From: Myxococcales bacterium
GTDB taxonomy: Bacteria; Myxococcota; Myxococcia; Myxococcales; JAJYLH01
Reading direction: 5' to 3'
Length of the DNA: 57,666 bases
NCBI GenBank assembly: GCA_021787845.1
Contig: JAJYLH010000037.1
Location: forward strand, 1 to 57,666
Shown piece after piece: positions 1-43,427 of this stretch (position 1 is its first letter; the number at the start of each line of letters is the position of its first letter). The position numbers and the translations under genes were made by a program. The notes under the pieces are model-generated. The model saw only the letters and a list, made by a program, of their open reading frames with translations. It was not told the DNA's origin and made no database searches.

Positions 1-3000
1 ATGAAACGGCTCGTGTTCATCGCGTTGCTGTGCGGGTGGTCGGCGATCGCGCTGGCGGACAGCGGGACCCCTCCCGCCTTCGTTCCACAGGGGCTGCCGA
101 CCCAGGGGTTCTTGCTCGACTCGACCAACAAGCCGGTGAGCGGGACGCTCCAGATCACGTTCTCGCTCTACGACGCGGCGACCGGCGGCAACTTGAAGTG
201 GCACGAGCAGCGGCAGGTCGACGTCAACGGCGGCTACTACGGTCTCGTCCTCGGCGACCCGAGCGTTTCCGGAACCACCCCGTTGACTCCGGACGACTTG
301 ACGCCGCCGCTCTACCTCGGCGTCGCGATCGGGTCCGGGCAGGAGCTGCAGCCTCGGCTCGAGGTCGGCACCGTCCCCTACGCGCTGCGGGCGCAGCTCG
401 CGACGAACCTCGCGAACGGGACCATCACCAACGCGACCATCACGAACTCCAGCGTCGACGCGACGAGCGTGTCGATCGGCGGGACGCCGGTGATCGACTC
501 GAGCGGCCAGTTCCTCGGCACCGCCCACGACGCCGAGAACCTCGGCGGGCAGCCCGCGAGCGGCTTCCTCACGAAGACCGGCGACGGCTCGGGCCTGACC
601 AACCTGAACCCGCAGAACATCGCGCAGGGCACGGCGAACATCAGCATCAGCGGCAACGCGGCGACCGCCACCAGCGCCAGCGGCCTCGTCGGGGTGCCCC
701 TCTCGACCACCGCGCCCGCGGCGATGGATGTGCTCCGCTACGACGCGCCGTCGAAGACCTGGGTGCCGAGCGCGGACGTGGCGAGCTTCAACGGACGGAC
801 CGGCGCGGTGAAGCCGCAGAGCGGCGACTACGGATTCCAGGACCTCGCGGGCATGGCTGCCGACACGCAGCTCGCGGGTCCCCTGGTGACGGCGCTGTCG
901 AGCGGCGACGGCCTGAAGGTGACGACGGCGAACCCGAACGCGGTGGGCTCGGCCGAGGTGGATCTCACGCTCGACCCGAACCAGACCCTCGCCGCCAGCG
1001 CCAACGGGCTGAGCGTGAACCTCGCGAACCAGAACACCTGGACCGGCACGCAGACGTTCAACGCCGGCGCTCAGGCCAGCGCCAGCACCGACGAGACGAC
1101 GCTGACGATCAAGCAGACCTCGATCGACAACCCGACCGCGGACGTGTTCGACGTGACGAACCGCAGCGGATCGAAGAAGTACTTCGCGGTGGACTCGGCG
1201 GGGAACGTGTCGTTCTCGGGGACCGTGACGGCCGCGAGCTTGTCCGCAACGATGAGCAAATCGGATCTGACGACCGCGCTGGGAGCGGCTTCGGCGTCGA
1301 ACGACGGCTACTTGAGCCAGGGTGACTGGGCGAAGTTCAATGGCAAGCTCGACTCGGTCATGGCCAGCACGCCGCTCTCGGGCAGCGGTACCACGACGAG
1401 CCCACTGGCGATCGCGAAGGCGACCGGCAGCGCTGATGGCTACTTGAGCTCGGCTGACTGGACAACGTTCAGCGGCAAGCTCGGCTCGGTCACGGCCAGC
1501 ACGCCGCTCTCGGGCAGCGGCACCACGACGAGCCCGCTGGCGATCGCCAAGGCGACCAGCAGCGCTGATGGCTACTTGAGCTCGACCGACTGGACGACGT
1601 TCAGCGGCAAGCTCGCGACGGTGACGACGGCCAACGGGACGCCTCTCTCCGGGAATGGCACCGCTTCGAGTCCGTTGTCGATCGCCAAGGCGACCGGCAG
1701 CGCCGATGGCTACTTGAGCTCGACCGACTGGACGACGTTCAACGGCAAGGTGAACCGAAGCGGCGATACGATCACCGGCGCCCTCGCGATGAGCCCGGCG
1801 ACCGACGTGGTGCCGTTGACGCTGACCGCCTCGACCAGCCAGACCAAGAACCTGACCGAGTGGCACGGTGCGACCGGCAACGTGGTCGGCTCGGTCGGGC
1901 CCACGGGCAACGCGACCTTCGGCAGCGTCACGGCCTCGAGCTTCGACGGGAACGCGAGCACGGTGACGAACGGCGTGTACACGACCGGCAGCTATGCCAA
2001 CCCGAGCTGGCTCACGTCGATCGACGGGTCGACGGTGAAGACCGGAACGGTGGCGGTGGCCAACGGCGGGACCGGAGCGACGACCGCGGCGGGCGCGCGC
2101 ACGAACCTGAGCGCGGCGGTGTCGGGCGCGAACGGCGACATCACCTCGCTCACCGGCCTGACGACGGCGCTGCCGGTCACCGAGGGCGGCACCGGGCTCC
2201 AAGCGGTCAACGCGGGCGACCTGCTCGTCGGCGCCAGCGGCAATACCGTCACCGCGACCGCCGGTCCGGCCGCCGCGCACGAGGTCCTCCGATCGACCGC
2301 CGCCGAAACGTTCGCCTGGGGCGCGCTGTCGACGAGCGATCTGCCGACGGGCATTCCCAACAGCGACCTCGCGAACTCGGCGGTGACCATCGGCACGGCG
2401 GCGGGCTCCGGGCTCACCGGCGGCGGCAGCGTCGACCTCGGGGGGAGCTTGTCACTGTCGATCCCGAACGCCGGGGTGACGAACGCGATGCTCGCCAACC
2501 CGGGGTTGACCGTCGACACGGCGGCGGGCTCCGGGCTCACCGGCGGCGGCAGCGTCGACCTCGGGGGGAGCTTGTCACTGTCGATCCCGAACGCCGGGGT
2601 GACGAACGCGATGCTCGCGGGCCCGGTGGTCTCCAGCCTGAGCACGAGCACGGGCCTCGCCGTCAGCAGTCCGGTGAACGGCGCGGGCGCGGCGACCATC
2701 GACCTCGCGACGAGCGGCGTGACGGCGGGCACCTACACCAAGCTGACGGTGGACCAGTACGGCCGGGCGACGTCGGGAGCGAGCTTGACCGCCCTGGACG
2801 TGACGGATGCCTTGGCCTACGTCCCTCTGAACAACGCGGGCGGCACGATGACCGGCGCGTTCGCGGTCGAGCCGACGAGCACCAGCGCGGTGCCGGTCAC
2901 GGTGAACGCTCCTACCGGCCAAGCGGCGGATCTGACCGACTGGCAGGTGAACAGCACTCCCGTCGCGCGGATGGACCCGTCGGGCGACTTGAGCCTCGCC

Positions 3001-4254
3001 GGCAGCCTTCGCCTCTCCGGCCTGACGATGCCTACCGGCGCCTCGGTCGGGGACGTTTTGACTTCGGACGCTTCCGGCGTCGGCTCCTGGCAGCCCCAGG
3101 TGATGTTCCACGCCATCGACCCGGTCACGAGCGCGGCAGGCGGCACCATTCCGGTGACTTCGGCCGACGAGGGCGTGCTCTTCGAGACCCTGCCTCAAGC
3201 CGGAGTCGCCAACCCGTTCTTCGTCGCGCTCCCGTCCGCCGCCGCGGTGGGCGCGGGCTTCACCGTCTCCTTCAAGTCGGAGGGCTCCGGCGACGTCACC
3301 ATCCAGGCCAACGGAACCGAGCTGATCGACGGGTATCCCGACGCGCTCTTGACGGGAGCGTTTGGCTCGGCCTACCGGAGCGGCACCCTGGTCTCCGACG
3401 GCACCGGGTGGATGATCTTTGGAAACATCGAATCGCCGTGGGGCCAGGTCGAAGTCACGACCACGACGACCACGACGTGGGTGGTTCCGCCCGCGGTGAC
3501 GGACATTTCCGTGGTGGTCATCGGCGGCGGAGGCGGCTCGTGGGTGGCGGGCGGCGGGGGCGGCGGAGCGCTCTGTTACAAGAGCCATATCGCAGTGACG
3601 CCAGGGCAGAGCCTGACCGTCCAGGCCGGCGCCGGCGGCACCAACGGCAGCCACGGTTGGCCCTCGAACTTCAACGGTACGATCTTGGCGGGTGGCGGCT
3701 ACGGCGGCGGCGCCACGGGCGGGGGTGGAGGCACCGGGACGACCAGCATCGGCGGTCTGTGTTTCGACGGAGGCAACGGCGGCGATGGCTTCTTCGACGG
3801 CTCCACCGGCAACTACCTCGGTGGCGGCGGCGGCGGCGCCGCGGGTTACGCCGGCGCCGGTGGCAACGGGGCGAGCGCGTCCGGTAGCAGTTGCAGCTCA
3901 TCAGTAGCGGCCGGCGGCAGCGGAGGCGGTGGCGGCGGGGGCGGCGCCTACGACTACGATACCTCCCCAACGTCTCCCGGCTTCGGCGGAGGCGGTGGAG
4001 GAGTCGGCGATTCGGGCGGGGACGCGAGCATGAGCGGCGTCGGGGGTGTCAACGCCTGCGACGCGCTCGCGAACGGCACTGCGTTCTCCGGCACCGGCGG
4101 GTCCAACGGACAACCCTCCACGAGCACGCAAACCATCGCCGGGGGCCAGTGGGGCGCTGGCGCTGGCGGAGGTCCGGCGGGTGGGCCGGGCACCCAGGGC
4201 GTCATCCGCATCATCTGGGGCGGAGGGCGGTCGTTCCCGAGCAACGCCCAGTAG
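1..4254 (+). CDS. Secreted modular fibre-like surface protein with Gly-rich C-terminus
   Basis: A 1,417-residue protein of unknown function that looks like an exported surface fibre or adhesin. Residues 1-19 form a signal peptide (MKR, hydrophobic core, ALAD cleavage region). Residues about 25-130 make a beta-rich module with PVSGTLQITFSLYD, PLYLGV and VPYALRA, a pattern I associate with myxobacterial exported proteins. The middle resembles phage tail-fibre modules: GDGSGLTNL, SFNGRTGAV, four copies of a unit containing GYLS..DW..F, and VANGGTGATTA. The last ~250 residues are glycine-rich, entering with VVVIGGGGG and leaving with GVIRIIW, like glycine-rich tips of tail adhesins. The ATG is the first base of the window, so its promoter and RBS cannot be seen. 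No phage genes lie nearby, so a cellular surface role is more likely than a prophage tail; that is inference. Confidence 0.8.
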   Translation: MKRLVFIALLCGWSAIALADSGTPPAFVPQGLPTQGFLLDSTNKPVSGTLQITFSLYDAATGGNLKWHEQRQVDVNGGYYGLVLGDPSVSGTTPLTPDDLTPPLYLGVAIGSGQELQPRLEVGTVPYALRAQLATNLANGTITNATITNSSVDATSVSIGGTPVIDSSGQFLGTAHDAENLGGQPASGFLTKTGDGSGLTNLNPQNIAQGTANISISGNAATATSASGLVGVPLSTTAPAAMDVLRYDAPSKTWVPSADVASFNGRTGAVKPQSGDYGFQDLAGMAADTQLAGPLVTALSSGDGLKVTTANPNAVGSAEVDLTLDPNQTLAASANGLSVNLANQNTWTGTQTFNAGAQASASTDETTLTIKQTSIDNPTADVFDVTNRSGSKKYFAVDSAGNVSFSGTVTAASLSATMSKSDLTTALGAASASNDGYLSQGDWAKFNGKLDSVMASTPLSGSGTTTSPLAIAKATGSADGYLSSADWTTFSGKLGSVTASTPLSGSGTTTSPLAIAKATSSADGYLSSTDWTTFSGKLATVTTANGTPLSGNGTASSPLSIAKATGSADGYLSSTDWTTFNGKVNRSGDTITGALAMSPATDVVPLTLTASTSQTKNLTEWHGATGNVVGSVGPTGNATFGSVTASSFDGNASTVTNGVYTTGSYANPSWLTSIDGSTVKTGTVAVANGGTGATTAAGARTNLSAAVSGANGDITSLTGLTTALPVTEGGTGLQAVNAGDLLVGASGNTVTATAGPAAAHEVLRSTAAETFAWGALSTSDLPTGIPNSDLANSAVTIGTAAGSGLTGGGSVDLGGSLSLSIPNAGVTNAMLANPGLTVDTAAGSGLTGGGSVDLGGSLSLSIPNAGVTNAMLAGPVVSSLSTSTGLAVSSPVNGAGAATIDLATSGVTAGTYTKLTVDQYGRATSGASLTALDVTDALAYVPLNNAGGTMTGAFAVEPTSTSAVPVTVNAPTGQAADLTDWQVNSTPVARMDPSGDLSLAGSLRLSGLTMPTGASVGDVLTSDASGVGSWQPQVMFHAIDPVTSAAGGTIPVTSADEGVLFETLPQAGVANPFFVALPSAAAVGAGFTVSFKSEGSGDVTIQANGTELIDGYPDALLTGAFGSAYRSGTLVSDGTGWMIFGNIESPWGQVEVTTTTTTTWVVPPAVTDISVVVIGGGGGSWVAGGGGGGALCYKSHIAVTPGQSLTVQAGAGGTNGSHGWPSNFNGTILAGGGYGGGATGGGGGTGTTSIGGLCFDGGNGGDGFFDGSTGNYLGGGGGGAAGYAGAGGNGASASGSSCSSSVAAGGSGGGGGGGGAYDYDTSPTSPGFGGGGGGVGDSGGDASMSGVGGVNACDALANGTAFSGTGGSNGQPSTSTQTIAGGQWGAGAGGGPAGGPGTQGVIRIIWGGGRSFPSNAQ
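2394..2618 (+). repeat. Exact 102-bp tandem duplication inside the fibre-like gene
   Basis: Bases 2394-2495 and 2517-2618 are identical, offset by 123 bp (41 codons). Third-codon positions are conserved too, which points to a recent duplication or gene conversion and not to selection on protein alone. The encoded unit contains GSGLTGGGSVDLGGSLSLSI. Confidence 0.85.
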
Positions 4255-27450: not shown

Positions 27451-27957
27451 TGGGAAATGCGCCGTGATTTCCGGGGCTTAGCGAGCACCGGGGAATCCGG
27501 AGAGGTCCTGGCGGAGGCCGGGGTCGAGCGCCCTTTCGACCCGTGATTCCCCTTCCATCCGTCGCCTTTGTCCGCTCGACGGCGGCGCTGGACACATGAT
27601 CGCTTCGGACAGGCCGCCGGTTCGCGCAACGCAAAAATCGACGTTGCGCGGGAAAGCGTCGCGCAACAATAGCGCCAGCCGCCAGGAGCCGCGGGTTCTT
27701 GCTTGTCGGCGCAGTTTCCACCCGTTTTCGCGCCGCGCCCCACCCATTCTGGAGCTGCCTGGTCGTGATTCCGGGAACCACGACGCGCAAGGTTTGCGTC
27801 CGTCCGAGGGTCCGGATCGCCGGCGGCTCCTCCGCCGGAAGCCTTTCTGACGGCCTCGGACCGATTTTCGTTCTCGATCCGACGGCAGGCACGCCCTCTG
27901 CACACCGCGCCCGGGGGTCTTTTTCTCGGTCGGCGCGGCTTATCCGCGGAGGGCAAC
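27451..27957. other. 507-bp intergenic region upstream of the cytochrome gene
   Basis: No convincing gene is present. Its notable feature is the GCGCAAC inverted repeat at 27623-27667. The region must hold the promoter of the nonahaem lipoprotein gene, but I cannot assign -35/-10 or -24/-12 elements with confidence. Confidence 0.5.
27623..27667. promoter_or_regulatory. CGCGCAACG inverted repeat plus a third half-site
   Basis: CGCGCAACG (27623-27631) and CGTTGCGCG (27642-27650) form a perfect 9-bp inverted repeat with a 10-bp A-rich spacer. A third direct copy, CGCGCAAC, follows at 27660-27667. The half-sites are one to two helical turns apart, as in a dimeric regulator's operator. It lies about 300 bp upstream of the cytochrome gene. 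The role as operator is inference. Confidence 0.45.
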
Positions 27958-30849
27958 ATGAGCACAAGAAGTTGGAGCACGGCGGCAGCAGTCATCCTGC
28001 TGCTCGGGGGCATCGCCTGCACAGGAGCGCAGGGGCCCAAGGGCGACACCGGACCGGCGGGACCGCAAGGCGCGACAGGCGCTCAGGGCCCCGCTGGCCA
28101 GAACGGGCAGGACGGTCAACCCGGGCAGAACGGGCAGAACGGCAAGGACGCGGTCACCACCGGCACCATCGCCGGCACGGTGACCGACGCGGTGAGCCAT
28201 GCGGCGCTCTCGGGCGTCACGGTCACGCTGCAAGACACCACCGGCACGAGCCTCGGCGTCACGGCCACCACCGACGCCACCGGCGCCTACACCCTGACCG
28301 CGCCCATGGGCACGGCGCAGGTCGCGTTCACCGCGCAGTACTATACCTCGCCCACCCCGACGGTGGTCGGCGTGGTCGCCGGCAAGACGGTGACGATCAA
28401 CGCCGCCCTGAGCCAGTCCAAGACCGGCGCGCCCAGCGTCACTCTCTCCCTCCCGGCTCCGGGCGACGACTTCGGTTACGGCGCGACCACCACCGTCAGC
28501 GCCACCGTGACGGCGGATCCCGACGGCGACAGCCTCACCTACACGTGGAAGGGCGCCACCGTCGACTCCAGCGACTCGACCAAGGCCGCCCTCACCTTTC
28601 CGACGATCGACCAGGCGATGGCGGCGAACACTCCGGACCCGAGCAACACGGTCCCGGACCTGATCAGCGGCTACAACTACAAGGCGGGTCGGTTCGGCAT
28701 CCTCCCGGTGATGAGCGACACCCGCGGCACCGTCAGCGCCAGCCTCACCCTCGACGACGGCCATGGGCAGAAGGTCACCGCCAGCATCAGCGCCGACGCC
28801 GCGAGCATCCTCACCGGCGACCGCAACGTCGCCGTCGGAACCCGCGTCTACATGAACGCCGGACACGACGGAGCCACCACCTGGCACATCACTTCGACGA
28901 CCGATTCGAGCGCGGCGCTCGACGCAGGCTCCTGCGGTGGCGACCTGACCAACTGCCGCACCCCGTCGTTCGTCGCCACCAACATCGGCAAGTACACGGT
29001 GACCGAGGGCTCGAACTCCATCGACATCTACGTCGGCGACTGGGCCGGCGCGATCAGCGGCGTCGGCGCGGCCGGCGGCGAATCTGTGGCCGTCGACTCG
29101 ACCTGCACCGACTGCCACGACGATACCCAGGCCCACGACAACTTCACGCCCTGGACGGGCACCGGCCACGCCGAGATGTTCGCGAAGGACCTGGACGGCC
29201 TGAACTCCAGCCACGCGAGCCCCGGTTGCTACGCCTGCCACACCGTCGGCTACGACGTTGGCGTCAACAACCACGGCTTCGACGACGTCCTGGCCACGAG
29301 CGACTGGCAGTTCCCGACCACCCTCCAGGCTGGCAACTGGCAGGCGATGGTGACCGCCGCGCCGCAGCTCGCTCGGCTCGCCAACATCCAGTGCGAGAAC
29401 TGCCACGGACCGAACGGCAACGGCCAGTCTGGCAACCTCACCGGCGCTCCGGCCCACAAGTTGACCGGCGCGTTGAACAGCGCTACCGCTCCCAACGACT
29501 CGCTCACCGACGAGATCAACTCGCCGCGCATCTCGTTCAGCGCCGAAGTCTGCGGCACCTGCCACGCCGGCGCGACGCACCATCACAACTACTCGGCATG
29601 GAATACGTACCAGCCGGGCGGCAAGAGCAACGGCGCCTACTCGCACTCGAACCGCACCCCGGCGGAGACCTTCGGCGTCAGCATGAAGCAGCACTGCGGC
29701 CGCTGCCACACCGCCCAGGGCTACATGGCCTACCAGAACAACCTCGTCGCGGGCATTCCGGGCCAGCTCTACGCGGCGGGCGCGAATCCTCCGCCCGCGA
29801 ACCTGACCGCTGCCAATGCGCAGCCGGTCACCTGCATCGTCTGCCACGACGCGCACAGCGACGCGTTCCCCAACCAGCTCCGCCAGTACGACGACACGGA
29901 CCTGCTTCCGAGCGGGTTCGAGGTCACCGGCGCCGGCAAGGGCGCGGTGTGCATGACCTGCCACAACAGCCGCAACGGCATGCAGACGGGCAGCGAGACC
30001 GCGACCTACCTGCACGAGGACAGCGAGAGCTACAACAGCGGCAATCCGCTCGATTACTCGGCACCGCACCAGGCCTGCCAGACAGACGTCTTCGCGGGCG
30101 AGAACGCCTACTTCCTGGGCAATTCGCTGCCGATGATCTCCAAACACGCGGCCGTCGAGGACACCTGCGTCGGCTGCCACATGACCAACAACCCGGCCAC
30201 CAAGGCGGAGGGCACGGACGCCAGCCACAACTACTGGATCAGCGACGCCGAGGTCGGCTCGCTCTGCCAGAGCTGCCACGGCAGCGCGGGCGACGTCGAC
30301 GGCAAGGCGATCCAAGCCTCCGTCGAGACCCTGCTCGACCAGTTGGGGACCAAGCTGGGCGCCGCGGTCGTGGATGCGGCCAACAACTCGGCCAACGGCA
30401 TCACCGTCACCGCGTACGACGACGCGACGACCGATGCGACCGGCGCCAGCCGGACGCCGACGGGCGACTACTCGACAACGATGTCCCTCGCGGCCGTGGC
30501 CAGCGGCAACCTGCTCGCCTCGGCGACGATCGAGGAGATCCACGGGCAGATCGGGTTCGAGCTGACCTTCACGAACCCCGTGGACAACATCCAGCTCGTG
30601 GACAGCCACGGCAACAACGTGGGCAGCCCGATTTCGCTCAAGAGCTTCGGGGTCCAGCTCGGCGCGCTCAAGGACGGCTCGGGCTCGCCGGCGCCGCTGT
30701 TCGGCCTCGACGGAACCCTGGTCCGCGGCGGATGGAACTACTTCCTCATCGAGGGCGATCAGAGCAAGGGCATCCACAACCCGACGTTCGTCCGGGACGT
30801 GCTCAACAGCTCGCTCGCTCAGGACTACGCCCTGCCGCACGCGACCTAG
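27958..30849 (+). CDS. Collagen-repeat nonahaem c-type cytochrome lipoprotein
   Basis: A 963-residue predicted lipoprotein. The signal sequence ends near Cys21 (GGIAC, a weak lipobox). Residues 26-64 are 13 collagen-like G-X-Y triplets (GPKGDTGPAGPQGATGAQ...). A carboxypeptidase-regulatory-like beta domain (GTIAGTVTDAVSHAALSGVT) and a PKD/Ig-like region follow. Between residues 383 and about 774 there are nine CXXCH haem-binding motifs: CTDCH, CYACH, CENCH, CGTCH, CGRCH, CIVCH, CMTCH, CVGCH and CQSCH. The C-terminal ~190 residues are haem-free and beta-rich. The likely role is periplasmic or outer-surface electron transfer. GGAGGG precedes the ATG. No cytochrome maturation genes are nearby. 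Confidence 0.92.
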   Translation: MSTRSWSTAAAVILLLGGIACTGAQGPKGDTGPAGPQGATGAQGPAGQNGQDGQPGQNGQNGKDAVTTGTIAGTVTDAVSHAALSGVTVTLQDTTGTSLGVTATTDATGAYTLTAPMGTAQVAFTAQYYTSPTPTVVGVVAGKTVTINAALSQSKTGAPSVTLSLPAPGDDFGYGATTTVSATVTADPDGDSLTYTWKGATVDSSDSTKAALTFPTIDQAMAANTPDPSNTVPDLISGYNYKAGRFGILPVMSDTRGTVSASLTLDDGHGQKVTASISADAASILTGDRNVAVGTRVYMNAGHDGATTWHITSTTDSSAALDAGSCGGDLTNCRTPSFVATNIGKYTVTEGSNSIDIYVGDWAGAISGVGAAGGESVAVDSTCTDCHDDTQAHDNFTPWTGTGHAEMFAKDLDGLNSSHASPGCYACHTVGYDVGVNNHGFDDVLATSDWQFPTTLQAGNWQAMVTAAPQLARLANIQCENCHGPNGNGQSGNLTGAPAHKLTGALNSATAPNDSLTDEINSPRISFSAEVCGTCHAGATHHHNYSAWNTYQPGGKSNGAYSHSNRTPAETFGVSMKQHCGRCHTAQGYMAYQNNLVAGIPGQLYAAGANPPPANLTAANAQPVTCIVCHDAHSDAFPNQLRQYDDTDLLPSGFEVTGAGKGAVCMTCHNSRNGMQTGSETATYLHEDSESYNSGNPLDYSAPHQACQTDVFAGENAYFLGNSLPMISKHAAVEDTCVGCHMTNNPATKAEGTDASHNYWISDAEVGSLCQSCHGSAGDVDGKAIQASVETLLDQLGTKLGAAVVDAANNSANGITVTAYDDATTDATGASRTPTGDYSTTMSLAAVASGNLLASATIEEIHGQIGFELTFTNPVDNIQLVDSHGNNVGSPISLKSFGVQLGALKDGSGSPAPLFGLDGTLVRGGWNYFLIEGDQSKGIHNPTFVRDVLNSSLAQDYALPHAT

Positions 30850-33296: not shown

Positions 33297-34768
33297 CGCG
33301 GCCTCCTCGGCTTCACCCGCCGCACCAGGTTCAGCTCCTTTTCCCAGCGCGACAGCTCGGCGGCGACTCGGCTGGGCGCGGGGCCTCCGACGACGTCGCG
33401 GCGGCGGAGCGAATCGCGCGCGTCGAGGCGGGCGCGGGCGCTCTCGTCGAACTTCGGGTGCAGCGCCTTGAGCTCTTCTTCGCTCAAATCGGCGGGCTTG
33501 CGCCCGGTGCGCAGGCATTCCTGGACGAGGGCGCCGACCGCGCGGTGCGCCTCGCGAAACGGCACGCCGGCCTCGACCAGCCAGTCGGCGAGGTCGGTGG
33601 AGAAGAGAAAGCCGTCGCTGACCGCCGCGAGCATCCGGTCGGTGCGCACGCGCAGGGTCAGGACGACGCCGGCCATCACGTCGAAGGCGTCGGCGGTGGA
33701 ATCGACCGCGTCGAAGAGCGGCTCCTTGTCCTCCTGCAAGTCCTTGTCGTAGGCGAGCGGCAACCCTTTGACCGTGGTCAGCAGCGAGACCAGGTCGCCC
33801 ACCACGCGGCCGGCCTTGGCGCGAGCGAGCTCGGCGGCGTCGGGGTTGCGCTTGTGGGGCATGATCGAGCTGCCGGTGCAATAGGCGTCGGAGAGCTCGA
33901 CGAACTGGAACTCGGCCGCCGACCAGAGCACCAGCTCTTCCGCCAGGCGGGAGAGCTGCACCATGGCGATAGCGCAGGCGCTCAGCATCTCGAGCGGCGC
34001 GTCGCGGGAAGCGACCGCGTCGATGGAGTTGCGGGTGACGCGGCCAAAGCCCAGCTCTCGCGCCACCCGTTCGCGGTCGATGGGAAACGGGGTCGCGGCC
34101 AAGGCGCCGGCGCCCAGGGGGCATTCGTCCGCGCGCGCGCGGGCCGACTCGAGCCGGCCCAAGTCGCGCGAGAACGACTCGACGTAGGCGAGCAGGTGGT
34201 GCGCGAAGAGCATCGGCTGCGCGCGCTGGAGGTGGGTGTAGCCGGGCAGGAGCGCGCCCTCGTGCGCGCGCGCCTTGGTGACGAGCGCCTTCATCAGCCC
34301 GCGGACGCTGGTCGAAAGCCGCGGCACCGCCTCCTGGGTGAGGTAGAGCTTCAGGTCGGTCGCGACCTGATCGTTGCGCGACCGCGCGGTGTGCAGCCGC
34401 CCTGCCGCTCCCCCGATGCGCTTCTGCAGAGCGCGTTCGACGTGGGTGTGGATGTCCTCCAGGTCGAGGTTCCACTCCATCTCGCCGCGGTCGATCTGCT
34501 TCTCGACCTCGGCCAGGCCCCGGTCGATCGCCTCGGCGTCGGCGGCGCTGATGATGCCCCGCGCGCCGAGCATCCGCGCGTGCGCCCGGGACGCGCGCAC
34601 GTCGTGGCGATAGAGGCGGCGGTCGACGTCGATGGAGGCGTTGAACCGGACGAGCAGCGGGTCGGCCGCGCCCGCCAGGGCCGCCCGAGAGACGGCACCG
34701 GTCTCGGGCGCCGGCTTCGCCGCCGCTCGCCGCGCCCCCCGCTGGGCGGTGCTCTTCGATTTCGCCAC
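33293..34768 (-). CDS. argH: Argininosuccinate lyase
   Basis: A 491-residue enzyme for the last step of arginine synthesis, splitting argininosuccinate into arginine and fumarate. Family motifs are [31 protein letters not shown] and the signature [12 protein letters not shown]. The first ~25 residues form a basic, Ala-rich extension ([20 protein letters not shown]), and the usual N-terminal WGGRF is absent. The start is GTG 34768, backed by GGAGGGG. Its stop overlaps the TTG of the lptM-like gene, so the three genes argH-lptM-lysA form one unit. It is divergent from the giant repeat lipoprotein gene. Confidence 0.96.
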
Positions 34769-35024
34769 GACCCCTCCGGCGCAAAGAACGCGGCCGCGTA
34801 TCGCATCTGACCCCGTCGATGCAAGGATCGGCCGCCACGCGGCCTGCCGGACGCCTCCGACCGCACCCGAGCGCGCGGCTCTGTCGCGACACCGCGGGCG
34901 GCGCCGTCCACCGGCGCGTCGCCGCGCTCATCGGGGTCTTCCCGACGGCCTTGTGACCGCCCTCACAGACGTTGGCGGGGGCGATACCCTTGGATCGACC
35001 TCTCAAACTCGACGGAGCGGGCCG

Positions 35025-38000
35025 ATGCGCGCGGCGCGACTGTTCGTGAGCCTCGGGCTTCTTGCGGCCTGCAGCGGGACACCGACGACCCGGGGCGACG
35101 GCGGAACGGCGCCGCTGAAGATCTCGCCGGAGGCTCACGACTTCGGCTCCGTCGCCGTCGGATCGTCGAGCGCTCCGTTCGCCTTCACCGTCTCCAACAC
35201 CGGCCGGACCGAGACGTCTGCGCTGGTGGTCGAGCTTTCCGGAGCGGCGAGAGCGGACTTCCTCCGCGAGACGGATGGCTGCTCGAATCAGCGCCTGGGT
35301 CCCGGCAAGACCTGCCGGTTGTCGATCGGGTTCGAGCCTTCCGCGTCCGGGGCCCGCTCGGCGACGTTGACGGTGGAGGATGGCAGCGAGAAGGCGACGG
35401 CGGCGCTGAACGGAACGGGCGAAGGAGCGGGCGCCCTCGTCATCACGCCGCCGGCGTGGTCGTTTCCCGCGCAGGAGGTCGGAAGCTCCTCCGACAGCGT
35501 CAACTTCACTGTGAAGAACGCCGGAGCGAGCGCGGCCGAAGGGCCGGTGGCGAGCATCGGCGGCCAGGACGCGAGCGAGTTCCGGGTGGTCGGCGGCGAC
35601 TGCGCGGGAGCGCTCGACCCGGGAGAGACCTGCGGGGTCGACGTGCGCTTCTCGCCGGCGAGCCCTGGCGCGAAGACCGCGGTGCTCGACGTGGCATCCG
35701 GCGGCGCGCTCGCGGAAGCGACGCTCACCGGCACCGCGTCGGCACCGGCCCGGCTCGTGGTGACGCCGGCCTCGTTCGATTACGGCAGCGTCGCGGTCGG
35801 CGGGAGCGCGAGCGAGACGTTCCAGGTCGCCAACGCCGGCGAGGAGGCGAGCGGCGCTGTGGACCTGTCCGTCGACGGGTCCGACGCCATCGACTTCGCC
35901 CTCGGCGCGAGCGGGTGCGGTGCCCCCCTCGCGGCGGGCACGAGTTGCCAGGTCGAGGTCGTGTTCGCGCCCGGCACGTCGGGACCGAAGTCGGCCGAGC
36001 TGAAGCTCAGCGCGGCGCCCGGCGGCACGGCGAGCGTCCTGTTGACCGGCGCGGCGCTGGCCGCGGGAGCTCTCGCCATCGATCCGCCGTCGGCCGACTT
36101 CGGCCAGGTCGCGTCGGGCACCACGAGCCCGCCGATCACGCTCACCGTCACCAACAACGGGGCCGAGAACGCGAACAATCTCGCGGTCTCGATCGGCGGC
36201 AGCGACGCCAGCGAGTTCACGAAGACCGACGACTGCGCGGGCCAGCCGCTCGCCGCGGGCCAGAGCTGCGCCGTCTCGGTCGAGCTTGCGCCGAGCGCGG
36301 CGGCCGGCCCGCGGGAGGCGACGCTGACGGTCACCTCGGATGCGGGCTCCCAGTCCGCGGCGCTGACCGGCAGCGTACCCGCTCCCGGGAGCGTGACGAT
36401 TTCGCCGACCGCGCACGACTTCGGCCCGGTCGCGCTCGGCGGGACGGCCTCGTTCGACTTCACGGTCGAGAACGTCGGCGGAACGAGCATCGCCGCGCTC
36501 GACGCGACGCTTTCCGGATCCGATGCGGACGCGTTCGCGGTCGACCCGAGCGGCTGCCCGTCCGGTCTCGCGCCGCTCGCGACCTGCACGGTGGCGCTGC
36601 GCTTCGCGCCGGCGAAGGTCGGACCGGCCTCGGCCTCGCTCGCGGTCGGTGCTGGCGCTGGCACCTCCTCCGTAGCGTCGGTCGTCGGCGCGGGCGTGAT
36701 GCCGGTCGCGTTCACGATCGCGCCGACCTCGCACGACTACGGTTCGGTCGCGGCGGGCCAGGCGACGGCCCCGTTCTCCTTCGCCCTGACCAACGGCGGC
36801 GTCTCGACGAGCGCGCCGATCCAGTGCTCGATCGGCGGTGTCGACGCCGACGACTTCCAGCTCGGGCCGGCTTCGTCGAGCTGCTGTGGCACGGTGCTGG
36901 GACCGGGCGCGAGCTGCGAGGCAAGCGTTCTGTTCTCGCCCGCGGCCGCCGGGTCGAAGGCGGCGACGCTCGACCTCTCGAGCGGCGAGAGCGGCGGCTT
37001 GGCGAGCGCGACTCTCGCCGGCAACGCGCTCGTGCCCGCGAACGTGACGATCGATCCCACCGGCCAGGACTTCGGCACGGTCGCCGTCGGCGACCAGAGC
37101 GCCGCCGCGACGTTCGAGCTGACCAATACCGGGGAAGCGACGAGCGCGAGCCTCGACCCCACGCTGACCGGCACCGGCGCCGACCAGTTCTCGCTCGTCT
37201 CGAACGGGTGCACCTCGCCGCTCGCCGGCGGCGCGAGCTGCGAGCTGAAGGTCGTCTTCGCTCCCGCCTCGGGCGGCGAGAAGGGCGCGACCTTGAGCGT
37301 GAACGGCGCGACGGCAAGCCTCACCGGCACCGCCGTCCCGCCGGGGAGCCTCACGGTCACGGCGAGCCTGCACGACTTCGGATCGATCGCGGTCGGCGCG
37401 TCGAGCGCGACGGAGACATTCACCGTCGACAACGTCGGAGGCCAGCCCACCGGCGCGATCGACGTGTCGCTCGGCGGCCAGAACCCGACCGATTTCGCCA
37501 TCACCTCCGACGGCTGCTCGCATCAGCCGCTCGACGCCGGCGCCACCTGCGACATCGCCGTCACCTTCAACCCCGCGTCCGCCGGAACGAAGGTCGCGAA
37601 CCTCAGCGCGAGCGCCTTGCCCGGCGGCGCCGCGCGCGCCGCGCTCTCCGGCACCGGTTTCGCCCCCGCCCACCTGAGCCTCACGCCGAGCGCCTTCGAC
37701 TTCGGCGGCGTCGCCATCGGCGCGACGAGCCAGCCCGCCACGTTCACCGTCACCAACGACGGCGGCGCGGCGACGGGAGCGTTGTCCGCCCAGATCCCCG
37801 GCACCAGCGAATTCGAGGTCTCCGGCGGCACGTGCGCGGCTCCCCTCGCCGCCGGCGCGAGCTGCACGGTCGAGGTGATCTTCTCCCCGACGAGCCGCGG
37901 CGCGACGTCGCCGATGCTCACCGTGGGCGACGGGACCATCGGCCAGAGCGCATCGCTCACCGGCGCCGGCCTCGCCCCGGCGAGCCTGACGATCGCGCCG

Positions 38001-41000
38001 CCGAGCCACGACTTCGGTTCGGTGGTCGAGGGCAGCTCCGCGGCCGCGGTCGCGTTCGCCGTCACCAACACGGGCGATCTGCCGAGCGGGAACCTCGCCG
38101 CTGCTCTCGCTGGCGCGAACGCGGGCGACTTCTCGATCGCGAGCACCACTTGCGCGAGCCCGCTCGCCGGCGGCTCGAGCTGCACGGTCGATGTGACGTT
38201 CGCGCCGACAAGCCAGGGAGTGAAGGCGGCGACCCTCGCCGTCGGCGACGGGACCATCGGTGCGAGCGCGTCGCTCTCCGGCACCGGCCTGCCGTCGGGC
38301 ACGCTGTCGATTTCGCCCGCGAGCCACGACTTCGGCGGCCTGGTCATCGGTCAGAACAGCATCTCCTACTTCCAGGTGAAGAACACCGGGAGCGGCTCGA
38401 CCGGCGCGCTCTCGGCGTCGATCACCGGCTCGGACGCCGGCGACTTCTCCGTCCACGAGATGAACTGCCCGAACCCGCTCGCCGCGAACCAGTCGTGCAG
38501 CATCGGCGTCGAGTTCGCCCCCGCTTCCCGCGGCGCGAAGAACGCGAGCCTCACCGTCGACGCCAGCCCCGGCGGCGGCGCGAGCGCCTCGCTCACGGGC
38601 ACCGGCGGCGCTCCTGCACTGCTCAGGCTCACGCCGGCCGCGCACGACTTCGGGACGATCGCCGACGACACCCAGTCGAGCGCGTTCGCCTTCAAGGTGA
38701 GCAACACCGGCGACGAGGATAGCGGCTCGATCTCGCCCACGCTCTCCGGCGATTCGAGCTCGTTCACCATTTCCAGCTCAACGTGCGCGACGCTCCCCGC
38801 GGGCGGAAGCTGCAAGGTCGACGTCTCCTTCACGCCCATCGACACCGGCGCGATGAGCGCGACGCTCACCGTCTCCGCGGCGCCCGGCGGCTCGGCGACG
38901 GCGTCGCTGACGGGCACCTCGGTCACGCCGCCGAACCTGACCATCTCGCCATCGAGCAACAGCTTCGGGGCCATCGGCGTCGGCTCTTCGACCGCGGCCG
39001 CGACGTTCACGGTGACGAACCAGGGCCAGGCGACGACCTCCGCGCTCTCGACCGCGCTCGCCGGAGCCGACGCCGCCGATTTCACGAAGTCGAGCGCGAC
39101 CGACGGCTGCACTGGCAAGACGCTCGCGGCCTACGCCTCCTGCACGATCCAGGTCGCCTTCGCTCCGAATTCCGCAGGCACCAAGAGCGCGACGCTCACT
39201 GTCTCCGCCACCGGCGCGAGCACCAGCGCCACGCTGACCGGCAACGCCCAGACCGCGGCGAGCTTGACGATTTCTCCCGCCAGCGACGACTTCGGCTCGG
39301 TGTCCGTCGGGCAGACGAGCTCGTCGTTCGACTTCACCGTGACGAACCAAGGCCAGGCGACGAGCGGCGCGATCTCGCTCGCGCTCAGCGGCACCGATGC
39401 TGGCCAGTTCCGAGCCACCGGCTGCGCCGGCTCGACCATCATGGGCGGCGGCTCCTGCACCGTCTCGGTCAGCTTCGCCCCCACCTCCGGCGGCGAGAAG
39501 AGCGCGACGTTCACCGTCTCCTCGTCGCCCGGCGGCAGCGCTGCCGCCACCTTGGCCGGAACCGGGCCGCGTCCGGCGAAGCTCTCGATCACCCCGGCGA
39601 GCCACGACTTCGGCTCGGTCGCGGAGGGCGCGGCGTCGGCGGCGCAGACGTTCACCGTCACCAACACCGGCGACCTGACCAGCGGGAGCGTCACCGCCTA
39701 CCTCGCCGGCACGAACTGGACCGACTTCACCATCACGGGCAACGGCTGCGGCTCGTCCCTCGCCAGCGGCGCGAGCTGCGCCATCGAGGTCGAGCTCACC
39801 CCGAGCCACGCGGGCGCCTTGAGCGCGACGCTCACCGTCGGCAACCCGATCGCCACGGCCTCGCTCTCGGGCACCGGCCTGACGCCGGCCAACCTGACCG
39901 TCAACCCGAGCTCGAACGACTTCGGCACCGTCATCGTCGGCTCCTCGAGCACCGCCACCTTCACCCTGACGAACACGGGCGGCCAGGACTCGGGCACGCT
40001 CTCGCACTCCACCTCGGGCGGAAACGCGGCCGACTTCGCCGTCACCGGCGGCGATTGCGGCACCACGCTCGCCGGCGGCGCGAGCTGCACGGTCCAGGTG
40101 ACCTTCACCCCCAGCGCGAACGGCGCGGAGTCGACGACCTTGAGCTACACGGCCACGCCCGGGGGCAAGGCCACCACGTGGATCTCCGGCACCGGCCAGA
40201 CCGCCGCGAGCCTCTCGGTCAGCCCGACCTCGAAGGACTTCGGCTCGGTCCTCGACGGCCAGACCTCGCAAGCGAGCTTCACCTTCACGAACGACGGCGG
40301 GCAAGACACCGGGACGCTCACCGCCGCGCTCTCCGGAGCCGATGCGTCCGACTTCAAGATCGTCACCGACTTCGACCATTGCACCGGCCAGACAATCCCG
40401 GGCGGGTTCACCTGCGACGTCGAGGTCGACTTCGTGCCGACTTCGGGCGGCGCCAAGAGCGCCACGCTCACCGTCTCGGGCAGCCCCGGCGCGAGCGCGA
40501 GCGCGACGCTCACCGGCACGGCGCTGAAGCCGGCGACGCTGTCCGTCACCCCGAACGCCCACGACTTCGGGCAGGCCGTGACGGGCACGACCTCGAGCGC
40601 GGTCACCTTCACCGTCACCAACACCGGCGACCAGGGGACCGGCGTCCTCTCGGCGGCGCTCGGCGGCACGAGCCCGAACCAGTTCGCGATCGTCGCGGGC
40701 AGCGACACCTGCACCAACGCGAGCCTCCTCGCGGGCGCGGCCTGCACGGTCGAGGTCGAGTTCGCGCCCACGGGCACCGGCTCGATCAGCGCAACCCTGA
40801 CGGTGAGCGGATCGCCCGGCGGCAGCGCTGTCGCCACCTTGAGCGGCACCGGCGACTCGCCAGGCTTCTTGACGCTCGACCCCGCCTACCACGACTTCGG
40901 CTGGGTCGGCGCCGGCACCGCGAGCGCGCCCGTCGCCTTCACGGTCACCAACTCTGGCGACGCGACGAGCGGGACGATCTCCAGCGCCGCGATCACCGGC

Positions 41001-43427
41001 ACCCACGCGGCGGACTTCACGGTCCTTGGCGACGGCTGCGCGGGCAAGACGCTCGCGGGCCACGCGAGCTGCAGCGTCGACGTCGAGTTCGCCCCCGCGA
41101 GCAAGCTCGGGGACGAGACGGCCTCGCTCGCGGTCGGCGCCTCGCCTGGCGGCAGCGCTACCGCTTCACTCGAGGGCTCCAGCGTCGCTCCCGCCCAGCT
41201 CACGGTCACCCCGGCCTCGAACGACTTCGGGTCGGTCGGCGAGGGCACGTCGTCGAGCGACGTCGCCTTCGCCTTCCAGAATACCGGCGAGGTGGACACG
41301 GGCAAGCTGCCGGCGGCATCTCTTTCCGGCACCGACGTGGACCAGTTCGCCATCGACACCGATGGCTGCCAGGGCCTGACGCTGCAGCCGAACTGGAGCT
41401 GCAACGTCACCGTCAGGTTCGCGCCGACCTCGACGGGCGCGAAGAGCGCGACCCTCACCGAAAGCGCCAGCCCGGGCGGGAGCGCCAGCGCCTCCCTGGC
41501 CGGGAGCGGCTACGTCCCCCCGCACCTGACCATCTCCCCGACCACCCACGACTTCGGGACGGTGCAGGCGGGCACGGCCAGCGCGGAGCAGTCGTTCACC
41601 ATCACCAACACCGGCGCCGGCGCGAGCTGGACCCTGTCGAGCACGCTCTCCGGCACCGCTGCGGGCGAGTTCACGATCGTCGCCGGGAGCGATACCTGCT
41701 CGGGGACCACGCTCGCCAGTGGGGCGAGTTGCACGGTCGGGGTGGAGCTGAAACCGACGTCCGAGGGCTCCAAGTCGGCGACGCTGACGGTGGCCGACGC
41801 CGGCGCCGGCACGACGAGCGCGACCTTGAGCGGCGCGGCGAAGCAGCTCGCCATCACGCCGACCTCGAACGGCTTCGGTAGCATCCGCGTCGGCGCCACG
41901 AGCACGACGGTCGCCTTCGCTGTGACCAACACCGGCTCGACCCCGACGGCGGGAGCGCTCACCGTCGCGCTCTCGGGGACCGGCGCCTCCGAGTTCACGA
42001 CGACGAGCGACACCTGCTCGGGCGCGGGCCTCGGCGCGGGACAGCGCTGCTCGGTCGCCATCGATTTCGCGCCGTCGGCCGTCGGCAGCCAGAGCGCGAC
42101 GCTCACCGTCGAGGACGCGCCGGACGACGCGGCCACCGCGAGCCTGGCCGGAACGGGAACGGCGCTCTCCATCACGCCGGCGACGGACGCGTTCGGCAAG
42201 GTGGCCGTCGGCTCGGCGCAGTCGACGACCTTCACCGTGCAGAACGTCGGGAGCGGGTCGAGCGGCCCCTTGACGACGACCCTCACCTCGTCGAGCGGCG
42301 CCTTCACCGCGACGACCGACGGCTGCAACTCGCAGACGCTCGCCGGAGGGGCGACCTGCACCGTCACCGTGAAATTCGCTCCGGCGAACGCGGGGACGGC
42401 GGACTCGGCGACGCTCGCGGTGTCGAGCACGCAGGCGGGCACGGCCTCCGCATCGCTTTCCGGCACCGGCGTCGACCTGACGCTCTCCTACCCGACGCTC
42501 ACGTTCCAGGCGTTCGTCGGCAAGCCTCAGAGCGAGACCGAAACCTTGACGAACCCCTCGGACTACGCCGTCACCCTCGACACCACCCTTCTCGGCATCT
42601 ACGTCGACCAGACCGGGAACGCCTTCGACACCGATCGCGGGGCTTGCGGCTCGAGCCTCGCCGCCGGGGCCTCCTGCGGCGTGACCGTCACCTTCGATCC
42701 GTCCGAGGTCGGCACCTACACCGGCACGCTGGTCGTCAAGGGGTACTCCCCGACCGCCGCGCTCACCGGCCAGGCGTTGATGCTCACCATCCTCCCGAGT
42801 CCGCTGGACTTCGGCAGGCACGCCGCGCCGTGGACCGACACGGTCACCATCGAGAACAACGGCGGCGTTCCGACCGGCACCTTCTATCCGGCCGAGATCG
42901 TCGATTACGACGCCTCGAGCTTCAGCACCTCCCAGGACACCTGCGCCGGCACGCGCCTCGCCGCGGGCGCGAGCTGCACCGTCGCGGTCACCTTCGCTCC
43001 GACGGCGGAAGGCGCGCTCACGAGCAAGCTCTCCCTGACCGTCCAGGGCGACGGCCCCGGCGGAATCGGCAACGACGACACGCTCACCGGCACGGGCATG
43101 GCGCTCGACCTCTCGCCGGCGAGCGCGACCTTTCCCGGGACGACGCCAGTCGGAAACGACGGCGGCACCGCGACCTTCACCCTCAGCAACGTCACCGGTC
43201 AGGCGACGAGCCAGCTCACCATCGCCGAAGGGGGCGCGGACCCGTACGACTTCGTCTTCCAGCCGGGCACCACGTGCCAGAGCGGCCACACGCTCGCAGC
43301 AAACTCGAGCTGCGCGATGGTGGTCGAGTTCCTTCCCCGCCAGAGCGGCACGCGCACGGCGACGATCACCATCAGCGGCAACAGCTACGAATCCGCGAGC
43401 GCCACCCTCTCCGGCACCGGCCAGTGA
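35025..43427 (+). CDS. Giant lipoprotein of ~26 choice-of-anchor-D (ASH/HYDIN-like) repeats
   Basis: A 2,800-residue lipoprotein with lipobox LAAC (Cys16), a short linker with DGGTAP, then about 26 immunoglobulin-like repeats of roughly 100-110 residues. Most open with a variant of P..HDFGSVAVG and continue with FTVTNTG, then a Cys pair in the pattern DxC....L..G.SC.V.V.F.P, and close with A.LTVS....A.L.GTG. Each repeat probably has one disulfide. The last three repeats are the most divergent. There is no other domain or C-terminal anchor. The ATG at 35025 has GGAG upstream. It probably forms a long surface rod for adhesion or matrix contact; function is inferred from architecture only. Confidence 0.92.
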   Translation: MRAARLFVSLGLLAACSGTPTTRGDGGTAPLKISPEAHDFGSVAVGSSSAPFAFTVSNTGRTETSALVVELSGAARADFLRETDGCSNQRLGPGKTCRLSIGFEPSASGARSATLTVEDGSEKATAALNGTGEGAGALVITPPAWSFPAQEVGSSSDSVNFTVKNAGASAAEGPVASIGGQDASEFRVVGGDCAGALDPGETCGVDVRFSPASPGAKTAVLDVASGGALAEATLTGTASAPARLVVTPASFDYGSVAVGGSASETFQVANAGEEASGAVDLSVDGSDAIDFALGASGCGAPLAAGTSCQVEVVFAPGTSGPKSAELKLSAAPGGTASVLLTGAALAAGALAIDPPSADFGQVASGTTSPPITLTVTNNGAENANNLAVSIGGSDASEFTKTDDCAGQPLAAGQSCAVSVELAPSAAAGPREATLTVTSDAGSQSAALTGSVPAPGSVTISPTAHDFGPVALGGTASFDFTVENVGGTSIAALDATLSGSDADAFAVDPSGCPSGLAPLATCTVALRFAPAKVGPASASLAVGAGAGTSSVASVVGAGVMPVAFTIAPTSHDYGSVAAGQATAPFSFALTNGGVSTSAPIQCSIGGVDADDFQLGPASSSCCGTVLGPGASCEASVLFSPAAAGSKAATLDLSSGESGGLASATLAGNALVPANVTIDPTGQDFGTVAVGDQSAAATFELTNTGEATSASLDPTLTGTGADQFSLVSNGCTSPLAGGASCELKVVFAPASGGEKGATLSVNGATASLTGTAVPPGSLTVTASLHDFGSIAVGASSATETFTVDNVGGQPTGAIDVSLGGQNPTDFAITSDGCSHQPLDAGATCDIAVTFNPASAGTKVANLSASALPGGAARAALSGTGFAPAHLSLTPSAFDFGGVAIGATSQPATFTVTNDGGAATGALSAQIPGTSEFEVSGGTCAAPLAAGASCTVEVIFSPTSRGATSPMLTVGDGTIGQSASLTGAGLAPASLTIAPPSHDFGSVVEGSSAAAVAFAVTNTGDLPSGNLAAALAGANAGDFSIASTTCASPLAGGSSCTVDVTFAPTSQGVKAATLAVGDGTIGASASLSGTGLPSGTLSISPASHDFGGLVIGQNSISYFQVKNTGSGSTGALSASITGSDAGDFSVHEMNCPNPLAANQSCSIGVEFAPASRGAKNASLTVDASPGGGASASLTGTGGAPALLRLTPAAHDFGTIADDTQSSAFAFKVSNTGDEDSGSISPTLSGDSSSFTISSSTCATLPAGGSCKVDVSFTPIDTGAMSATLTVSAAPGGSATASLTGTSVTPPNLTISPSSNSFGAIGVGSSTAAATFTVTNQGQATTSALSTALAGADAADFTKSSATDGCTGKTLAAYASCTIQVAFAPNSAGTKSATLTVSATGASTSATLTGNAQTAASLTISPASDDFGSVSVGQTSSSFDFTVTNQGQATSGAISLALSGTDAGQFRATGCAGSTIMGGGSCTVSVSFAPTSGGEKSATFTVSSSPGGSAAATLAGTGPRPAKLSITPASHDFGSVAEGAASAAQTFTVTNTGDLTSGSVTAYLAGTNWTDFTITGNGCGSSLASGASCAIEVELTPSHAGALSATLTVGNPIATASLSGTGLTPANLTVNPSSNDFGTVIVGSSSTATFTLTNTGGQDSGTLSHSTSGGNAADFAVTGGDCGTTLAGGASCTVQVTFTPSANGAESTTLSYTATPGGKATTWISGTGQTAASLSVSPTSKDFGSVLDGQTSQASFTFTNDGGQDTGTLTAALSGADASDFKIVTDFDHCTGQTIPGGFTCDVEVDFVPTSGGAKSATLTVSGSPGASASATLTGTALKPATLSVTPNAHDFGQAVTGTTSSAVTFTVTNTGDQGTGVLSAALGGTSPNQFAIVAGSDTCTNASLLAGAACTVEVEFAPTGTGSISATLTVSGSPGGSAVATLSGTGDSPGFLTLDPAYHDFGWVGAGTASAPVAFTVTNSGDATSGTISSAAITGTHAADFTVLGDGCAGKTLAGHASCSVDVEFAPASKLGDETASLAVGASPGGSATASLEGSSVAPAQLTVTPASNDFGSVGEGTSSSDVAFAFQNTGEVDTGKLPAASLSGTDVDQFAIDTDGCQGLTLQPNWSCNVTVRFAPTSTGAKSATLTESASPGGSASASLAGSGYVPPHLTISPTTHDFGTVQAGTASAEQSFTITNTGAGASWTLSSTLSGTAAGEFTIVAGSDTCSGTTLASGASCTVGVELKPTSEGSKSATLTVADAGAGTTSATLSGAAKQLAITPTSNGFGSIRVGATSTTVAFAVTNTGSTPTAGALTVALSGTGASEFTTTSDTCSGAGLGAGQRCSVAIDFAPSAVGSQSATLTVEDAPDDAATASLAGTGTALSITPATDAFGKVAVGSAQSTTFTVQNVGSGSSGPLTTTLTSSSGAFTATTDGCNSQTLAGGATCTVTVKFAPANAGTADSATLAVSSTQAGTASASLSGTGVDLTLSYPTLTFQAFVGKPQSETETLTNPSDYAVTLDTTLLGIYVDQTGNAFDTDRGACGSSLAAGASCGVTVTFDPSEVGTYTGTLVVKGYSPTAALTGQALMLTILPSPLDFGRHAAPWTDTVTIENNGGVPTGTFYPAEIVDYDASSFSTSQDTCAGTRLAAGASCTVAVTFAPTAEGALTSKLSLTVQGDGPGGIGNDDTLTGTGMALDLSPASATFPGTTPVGNDGGTATFTLSNVTGQATSQLTIAEGGADPYDFVFQPGTTCQSGHTLAANSSCAMVVEFLPRQSGTRTATITISGNSYESASATLSGTGQ

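Follow-up and report, generated by a model that had tools for sequence, protein, structure and literature searches.

The gene lies at 27958..30849 (+) of the analysed window, which is the whole 57,666-nt stretch of DNA, and encodes a nonahaem c-type cytochrome lipoprotein of 963 amino acids, as judged from the list of open reading frames, the translation and nine CXXCH motifs. Its start codon is ATG, and a GGAGG ribosome-binding site (27948..27952, +) is readable five bases upstream of the reading frame. Residues 1–20 (27958..28017, +) form a signal peptide, MSTRSWSTAAAVILLLGGIA, with the lipobox GGIA/C. The next residue, Cys21 (28018..28020, +), is the putative lipid acceptor: it is invariant and ends the hydrophobic segment in 15 of 15 aligned relatives. 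The protein is probably held on the cell surface by its lipid.

The anchor is followed by a collagen-like segment of G-X-Y triplets (residues 23–64; 28024..28149, +), which fills the entire stretch up to the first folded domain. This is a CarboxypepD_reg domain (residues 70–151; 28165..28410, +; PF13620, 44.5 bits, above the cut-off), modelled as a beta-sandwich with pLDDT near 90. A second beta-rich region (residues ~155–360; 28420..29037, +) is Ig/PKD-like by the topology of its predicted strands, mostly with pLDDT 65–83; the Pfam search found no family above the cut-off there. The nonahaem core spans residues 383–774 (29104..30279, +), with CXXCH motifs starting at residues 383, 424, 479, 532, 580, 626, 665, 737, and 770, and was delimited using Pfam cytochrome families, the OcwA profile, the model, and Foldseek. 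Finally, residues 782–954 (30301..30819, +) comprise, according to the model and the OcwA alignment, a C-terminal helix, a beta insert, and NrfA/OcwA-type helices with the signature WNY...HNPxF. The original prediction, a CarboxypepD_reg domain and nine CXXCH motifs downstream of the repeat, was borne out by the Pfam score and the motif count.

The upstream neighbour of the gene encodes a DUF3014 protein, and the downstream ones, identified by eye, encode diaminopimelate decarboxylase and argininosuccinate lyase; no electron-transfer genes were found among the neighbours. A promoter and terminator scan around the gene gave no useful result. Elsewhere in the window, a 2931-aa ORF (34632-43427, +) carries many HYDIN/ASH/Cep192-like Ig repeats and probably encodes a lipoprotein starting near 35013, and a 1417-aa ORF (1-4254, +), which matches no Pfam family, is very rich in Gly at its C-terminal end. 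In several genomes of the Anaeromyxobacter family (L060, L062, L065), a gene with the same N-terminus adjoins the nonahaem gene. In L065 this adjoining gene encodes a histidine kinase by Pfam and is followed by an apparent response regulator, a possible regulatory link.

A profile of 15 relatives was compared with PDB sequences. It matched OcwA (6i5b) with E 2.8e-22 over most of the haem region. The motif THHHNYSAW, containing His541-His542-His543 (29578..29586, +), aligns with SHHLQYPEW of the OcwA haem-2 pocket, so that His541-His542 face the distal His-His pair (281/282) of haem 2. The second His-His motif of OcwA, at haem 5, has no counterpart: a single His704 stands at the aligned place, where the alignment is weak. 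The AlphaFold model of the haem domain built from 81 sequences had pLDDT 83 and pTM 0.87, while the 15-sequence model was poor in this region. The best PDB match of the haem model in Foldseek was again 6i5b (probability 1.00, E 9.4e-5, TM 0.33/0.40); TM-scores this low are what one would expect of a haem-free model, and the fold evidence by itself is not decisive. Taken together, alignment and model indicate that the haem core is a homologue of OcwA within the NrfA superfamily, although the name OcwA is not warranted.

The repeat consists of 14 uninterrupted triplets, GAQ GPK GDT GPA GPQ GAT GAQ GPA GQN GQD GQP GQN GQN GKD, and not of 13 as originally counted. It had also been placed directly after the lipidated Cys; the position at the anchor holds, but a single Thr separates Cys21 from the first repeat Gly. 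Every one of the 14 Gly in the segment is in phase, a number reached by 0 of 50,000 shuffles of the 45-residue stretch (longest run, 9). The Collagen family PF01391 scored 26.8 bits on the protein (cut-off 27.2) and 33.2 bits in a whole-genome frame search. TRF reported 4.9 copies of a 9-mer, confined to the C-terminal third of the repeat, and the remainder uses diverse codons. A chance or low-complexity origin is ruled out by the shuffles, the codon diversity, and the conservation described below, and DNA slippage as the sole origin is ruled out by the presence of the 9-mer copies at one end only.

We searched for relatives in 60 genomes of the same order and found them in 13. In all cases with a readable N-terminus, the signal peptide ends in Cys and is followed by a G-X-Y run of 8–36 triplets, 36 being found in G007. 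A paralogue on another contig of the same genome (C46) has 49% identity and 13 triplets. A wider scan, with one genome per species, yielded 79 loci in many phyla; thus, the core of the OcwA type, which is known from a Gram-positive organism, has a wide distribution. At the anchor site, G-X-Y runs occur in Myxococcota and in a member of Chloroflexota (L072, about 9 triplets), and short runs of 2–4 triplets in Nitrospirota, one other deltaproteobacterial member, and one member of Dehalococcoidales. Moreover, a nonahaem relative from a Thaumarchaeota MAG (JACPRH010000014.1, L136:4863-7337) has 25 triplets immediately behind an N-terminal membrane helix. As the same contig encodes the large subunit of archaeal DNA polymerase D, adjoining this gene, it is truly archaeal and not bacterial contamination.

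Among 85 relatives that could be classified, runs of at least three triplets were present in 26 of 30 anchored proteins, including one (L148) cut by the contig end before the anchor, and in 0 of 55 unanchored ones (Fisher 5e-18, kinship ignored). The latter come from Ignavibacteria, Verrucomicrobia, Bacteroidota, Acidobacteria, and other groups. Homologues without the segment at equivalent positions had been named as what would refute the proposed design; the outcome mostly favours it, most anchored homologues keeping the segment, but a few have only 3–4 triplets, and one further relative has two. A tree-aware test of anchor against G-X-Y gave three independent pairs on well supported branches, so that the sign test was underpowered and not significant. 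Hence, the association is a clear pattern, but it is not significant after correction for kinship, because the tree provides only three independent contrasts.

Similar segments are found behind the anchor of other cytochromes. The nonahaem protein itself is not a member of the OmcA/MtrC family, as TIGR03507 did not match it at E up to 1. In the same genome, a decahaem protein on contig C83 is a clear match to TIGR03507 (409 bits), and its Cys is followed by 17 triplets; contig C69 encodes an 8-haem protein with 15 triplets. In our census of haem lipoproteins in this genome, done by family searches, at least two other haem-rich lipoproteins (C83, C95) were without a G-X-Y segment. Two non-haem lipoproteins with G-X-Y are encoded on contig C80. 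PF01391 matches on C14, C141, C104, and C1 looked like simple-sequence repeats and were excluded from the collagen-like lipoproteins.

The C83 decahaem gene stands in a cytochrome cluster (L194:4355-15552) that resembles an extracellular electron transfer cluster. In addition to the OmcA/MtrC-family decahaem, it encodes a mono-haem cytochrome c, an 11-haem GSu_C4xC lipoprotein, a 429-aa protein that belongs to no known family, a NapC/NirT-like 6-haem protein, and another 11-haem protein.

Many OmcA/MtrC-family members from Myxococcota have 5–32 triplets after the Cys. By our own reading of 30 such loci, at least five triplets are present in about 20 of the 27 with a readable lipobox; the remainder are four Anaeromyxobacter copies with poly-Gly and three with short or other repeats. 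In the Anaeromyxobacter decahaems (L214, L218, L221, L223) poly-Gly takes the place of G-X-Y and in three of them is preceded by Ser/Asn/Asp runs. In other members of the family (L225, L227, L230), Cys-containing modules (CTVKDNGNG..TITCPDGS) together with NGT/NGQ repeats lie in the stretch from the anchor to the first domain. For Shewanella OmcA, GSDGKDGEDGKPGVVG, and MtrF, GSDGDDGSPGEPGKP, the sequences in the PDB contain five to six triplets. Thus, a G-X-Y module next to the anchor recurs among surface multihaem cytochromes. The original prediction held that such a design had not been described. Indeed, in the literature searched we came across no account of multihaem cytochromes with collagen-like segments, but short versions were already within the well-known OmcA and MtrF sequences.

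We compared three orthologues from the Anaeromyxobacter family (L064, L066, L067), whose identity to one of their number, taken outside the segment, is 82–89%. Gly positions had 0 of 33 amino-acid changes, with 20 silent ones, compared to 13 of 33 for the X positions and 9 of 36 for the Y positions. These counts come from three pairwise comparisons that are not mutually independent, but the contrast is large. Pooling 254 triplets from 19 relatives, we found 73 Pro at X and 24 at Y (29% and 9%), and 19 Thr at X and 71 at Y (7% and 28%). The values published for all bacteria are 19% Pro and 31.6% Thr (PMC8968730), and the bias towards Pro at X and Thr at Y agrees with the composition reported there for bacterial collagens. 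Purifying selection specific to Gly, together with the composition of X and Y, fits a genuine collagen-type sequence.

These data bear on the possibility that the segment is a disordered leash, in which G-X-Y would be a habit that surface lipoproteins acquired in evolution, with no structural necessity behind it. The segment is disordered in the single-chain model (pLDDT about 30–46), as a lone collagen chain would be too. The repeat number varies between 2 and 36 triplets, some OmcA/MtrC homologues have poly-Gly or Cys-rich NGT repeats instead, and simple repeats such as GATGAN (L056) could stem from DNA slippage. Still, a leash does not need Gly at every third residue, and in the three orthologues Gly is constant while X and Y vary; nor does it call for asymmetric use of X and Y. 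A mere flexible linker accounts for neither the Gly conservation nor the X/Y bias, and we give this explanation somewhat less than an even chance.

The strict Gly period under selection and the collagen-type asymmetry of X and Y are also what one would expect if the G-X-Y segments of three lipidated chains wound around one another as a collagen triple helix, as originally proposed. The resulting trimer would hold 27 haems ~12 nm above the membrane, the length of the fully extended repeat (42 residues x 0.286 nm). Three N-termini could share one membrane, the chains being anchored at the same end, and long runs do exist, as in the archaeal relative and in G007. Moreover, the extracellular part of Bucl8, with about 20 GAS triplets, is a triple helix by circular dichroism (PMC7682875). 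On the other hand, no trimerisation domain or coiled coil was recognised beside the repeat by Pfam or in the model, its neighbour being the CarboxypepD_reg domain. OcwA is a monomer/dimer (PMC6703420). The second half of the segment (GQN GQD GQP GQN GQN GKD) is Pro-poor, and a helix of 14 triplets that has no hydroxyproline may have a low melting temperature. The runs of 2–4 triplets in some relatives and the poly-Gly at the same place in some OmcA/MtrC homologues also speak against a triple helix, and we regard it as possible but rather doubtful. Its extension to unrelated families, in which anchored multihaem cytochromes would repeatedly trimerise via a lipid-proximal collagen triple helix and so keep their haems away from the outer membrane, seems unlikely; it would cover the OcwA-like nonahaem proteins, the OmcA/MtrC decahaems, and the archaeal relative with its repeat after a membrane helix.

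It is much less probable that the segment mainly serves adhesion, binding mineral, polysaccharide or a partner protein like other bacterial collagen-like proteins. Bacterial collagen-like regions do bind ligands (PMC7682875), and the two non-haem lipoproteins on C80 would be in line with such a function. However, the segment is membrane-proximal, the least exposed place, and an alignment of 15 relatives contains no conserved X/Y motif.

We favour, with a probability of about 0.72, the interpretation that the protein is a lipid-anchored nonahaem cytochrome of the outer surface with an OcwA-homologous core, in which G-X-Y is a collagen-type spacer and which has a role in electron transfer. The segment is conserved in anchored relatives and absent from unanchored ones, its Gly residues are under selection, and the core is OcwA-like; lipidation, the location at the surface, and the roles in spacing and electron transfer are inferred. 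The 14 triplets would form an extended collagen-type (polyproline-II) spacer by which both beta domains and the haem core are raised above the membrane. The core might then dock to an outer-membrane cytochrome, e.g. the OmcA/MtrC-type decahaem from C83, take up electrons, and deliver them to minerals, soluble acceptors or partner proteins. Further support comes from G-X-Y at the same place in OmcA/MtrC-family decahaems, including the one of this genome, and in OmcA and MtrF from the PDB, and from the electron-transfer-like cytochrome cluster on C83. Against this, the contrast between anchored and unanchored proteins rests on few independent events, and the gene itself has no electron-transfer neighbours. 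In addition, 12 nm would put the haems far beyond the tunnelling distance of any membrane conduit, so that docking, bending or carriers would be needed. This favours a spacer with which the head can reach its partners over a rigid pillar.

Spacing and oligomerisation of surface cytochromes bear on the route of electrons to minerals and electrodes. In recombinant constructs and crystal structures, anchor-proximal segments are usually either omitted or not resolved. A collagen-type spacer that recurs behind the anchor in two cytochrome families unrelated to each other, and also occurs in an archaeal homologue, would be a simple, testable feature.

Of the systems already known, the nonahaem surface terminal reductase OcwA (Thermincola potens, PDB 6i5b) is related through its core. 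It shares the nine CXXCH motifs, the homologous core, the haem-2 His-His motif, and the C-terminal HNP helix, but its haem-5 His-His pair has no match. It has 526 residues against 963 here; only the haem region of the profile matches the OcwA chain, and nothing in it aligns to the collagen-like or CarboxypepD_reg segments. OmcA, MtrC, and MtrF (TIGR03507) are also lipid-anchored multihaem proteins, of which Shewanella OmcA and MtrF have a short G-X-Y run behind the Cys, but they carry ten haems in another arrangement. Similarly, Bucl8 of Burkholderia is an outer-membrane lipoprotein with a short G-X-Y region of variable repeat number (6–38); however, it is a TolC-like trimer without haem, and its collagen region is extracellular and C-terminal, not beside the lipid (PMC7682875). 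The streptococcal Scl1 and Scl2 have G-X-Y without hydroxyproline, and their NCBIfam models match the nonahaem repeat locally, but they have 50–79 triplets, cell-wall anchoring, their own trimerisation domain, and no haem (PMC8968730). The anchor-proximal G-X-Y segment of multihaem cytochromes is a real, conserved, and under-described feature built from known parts.
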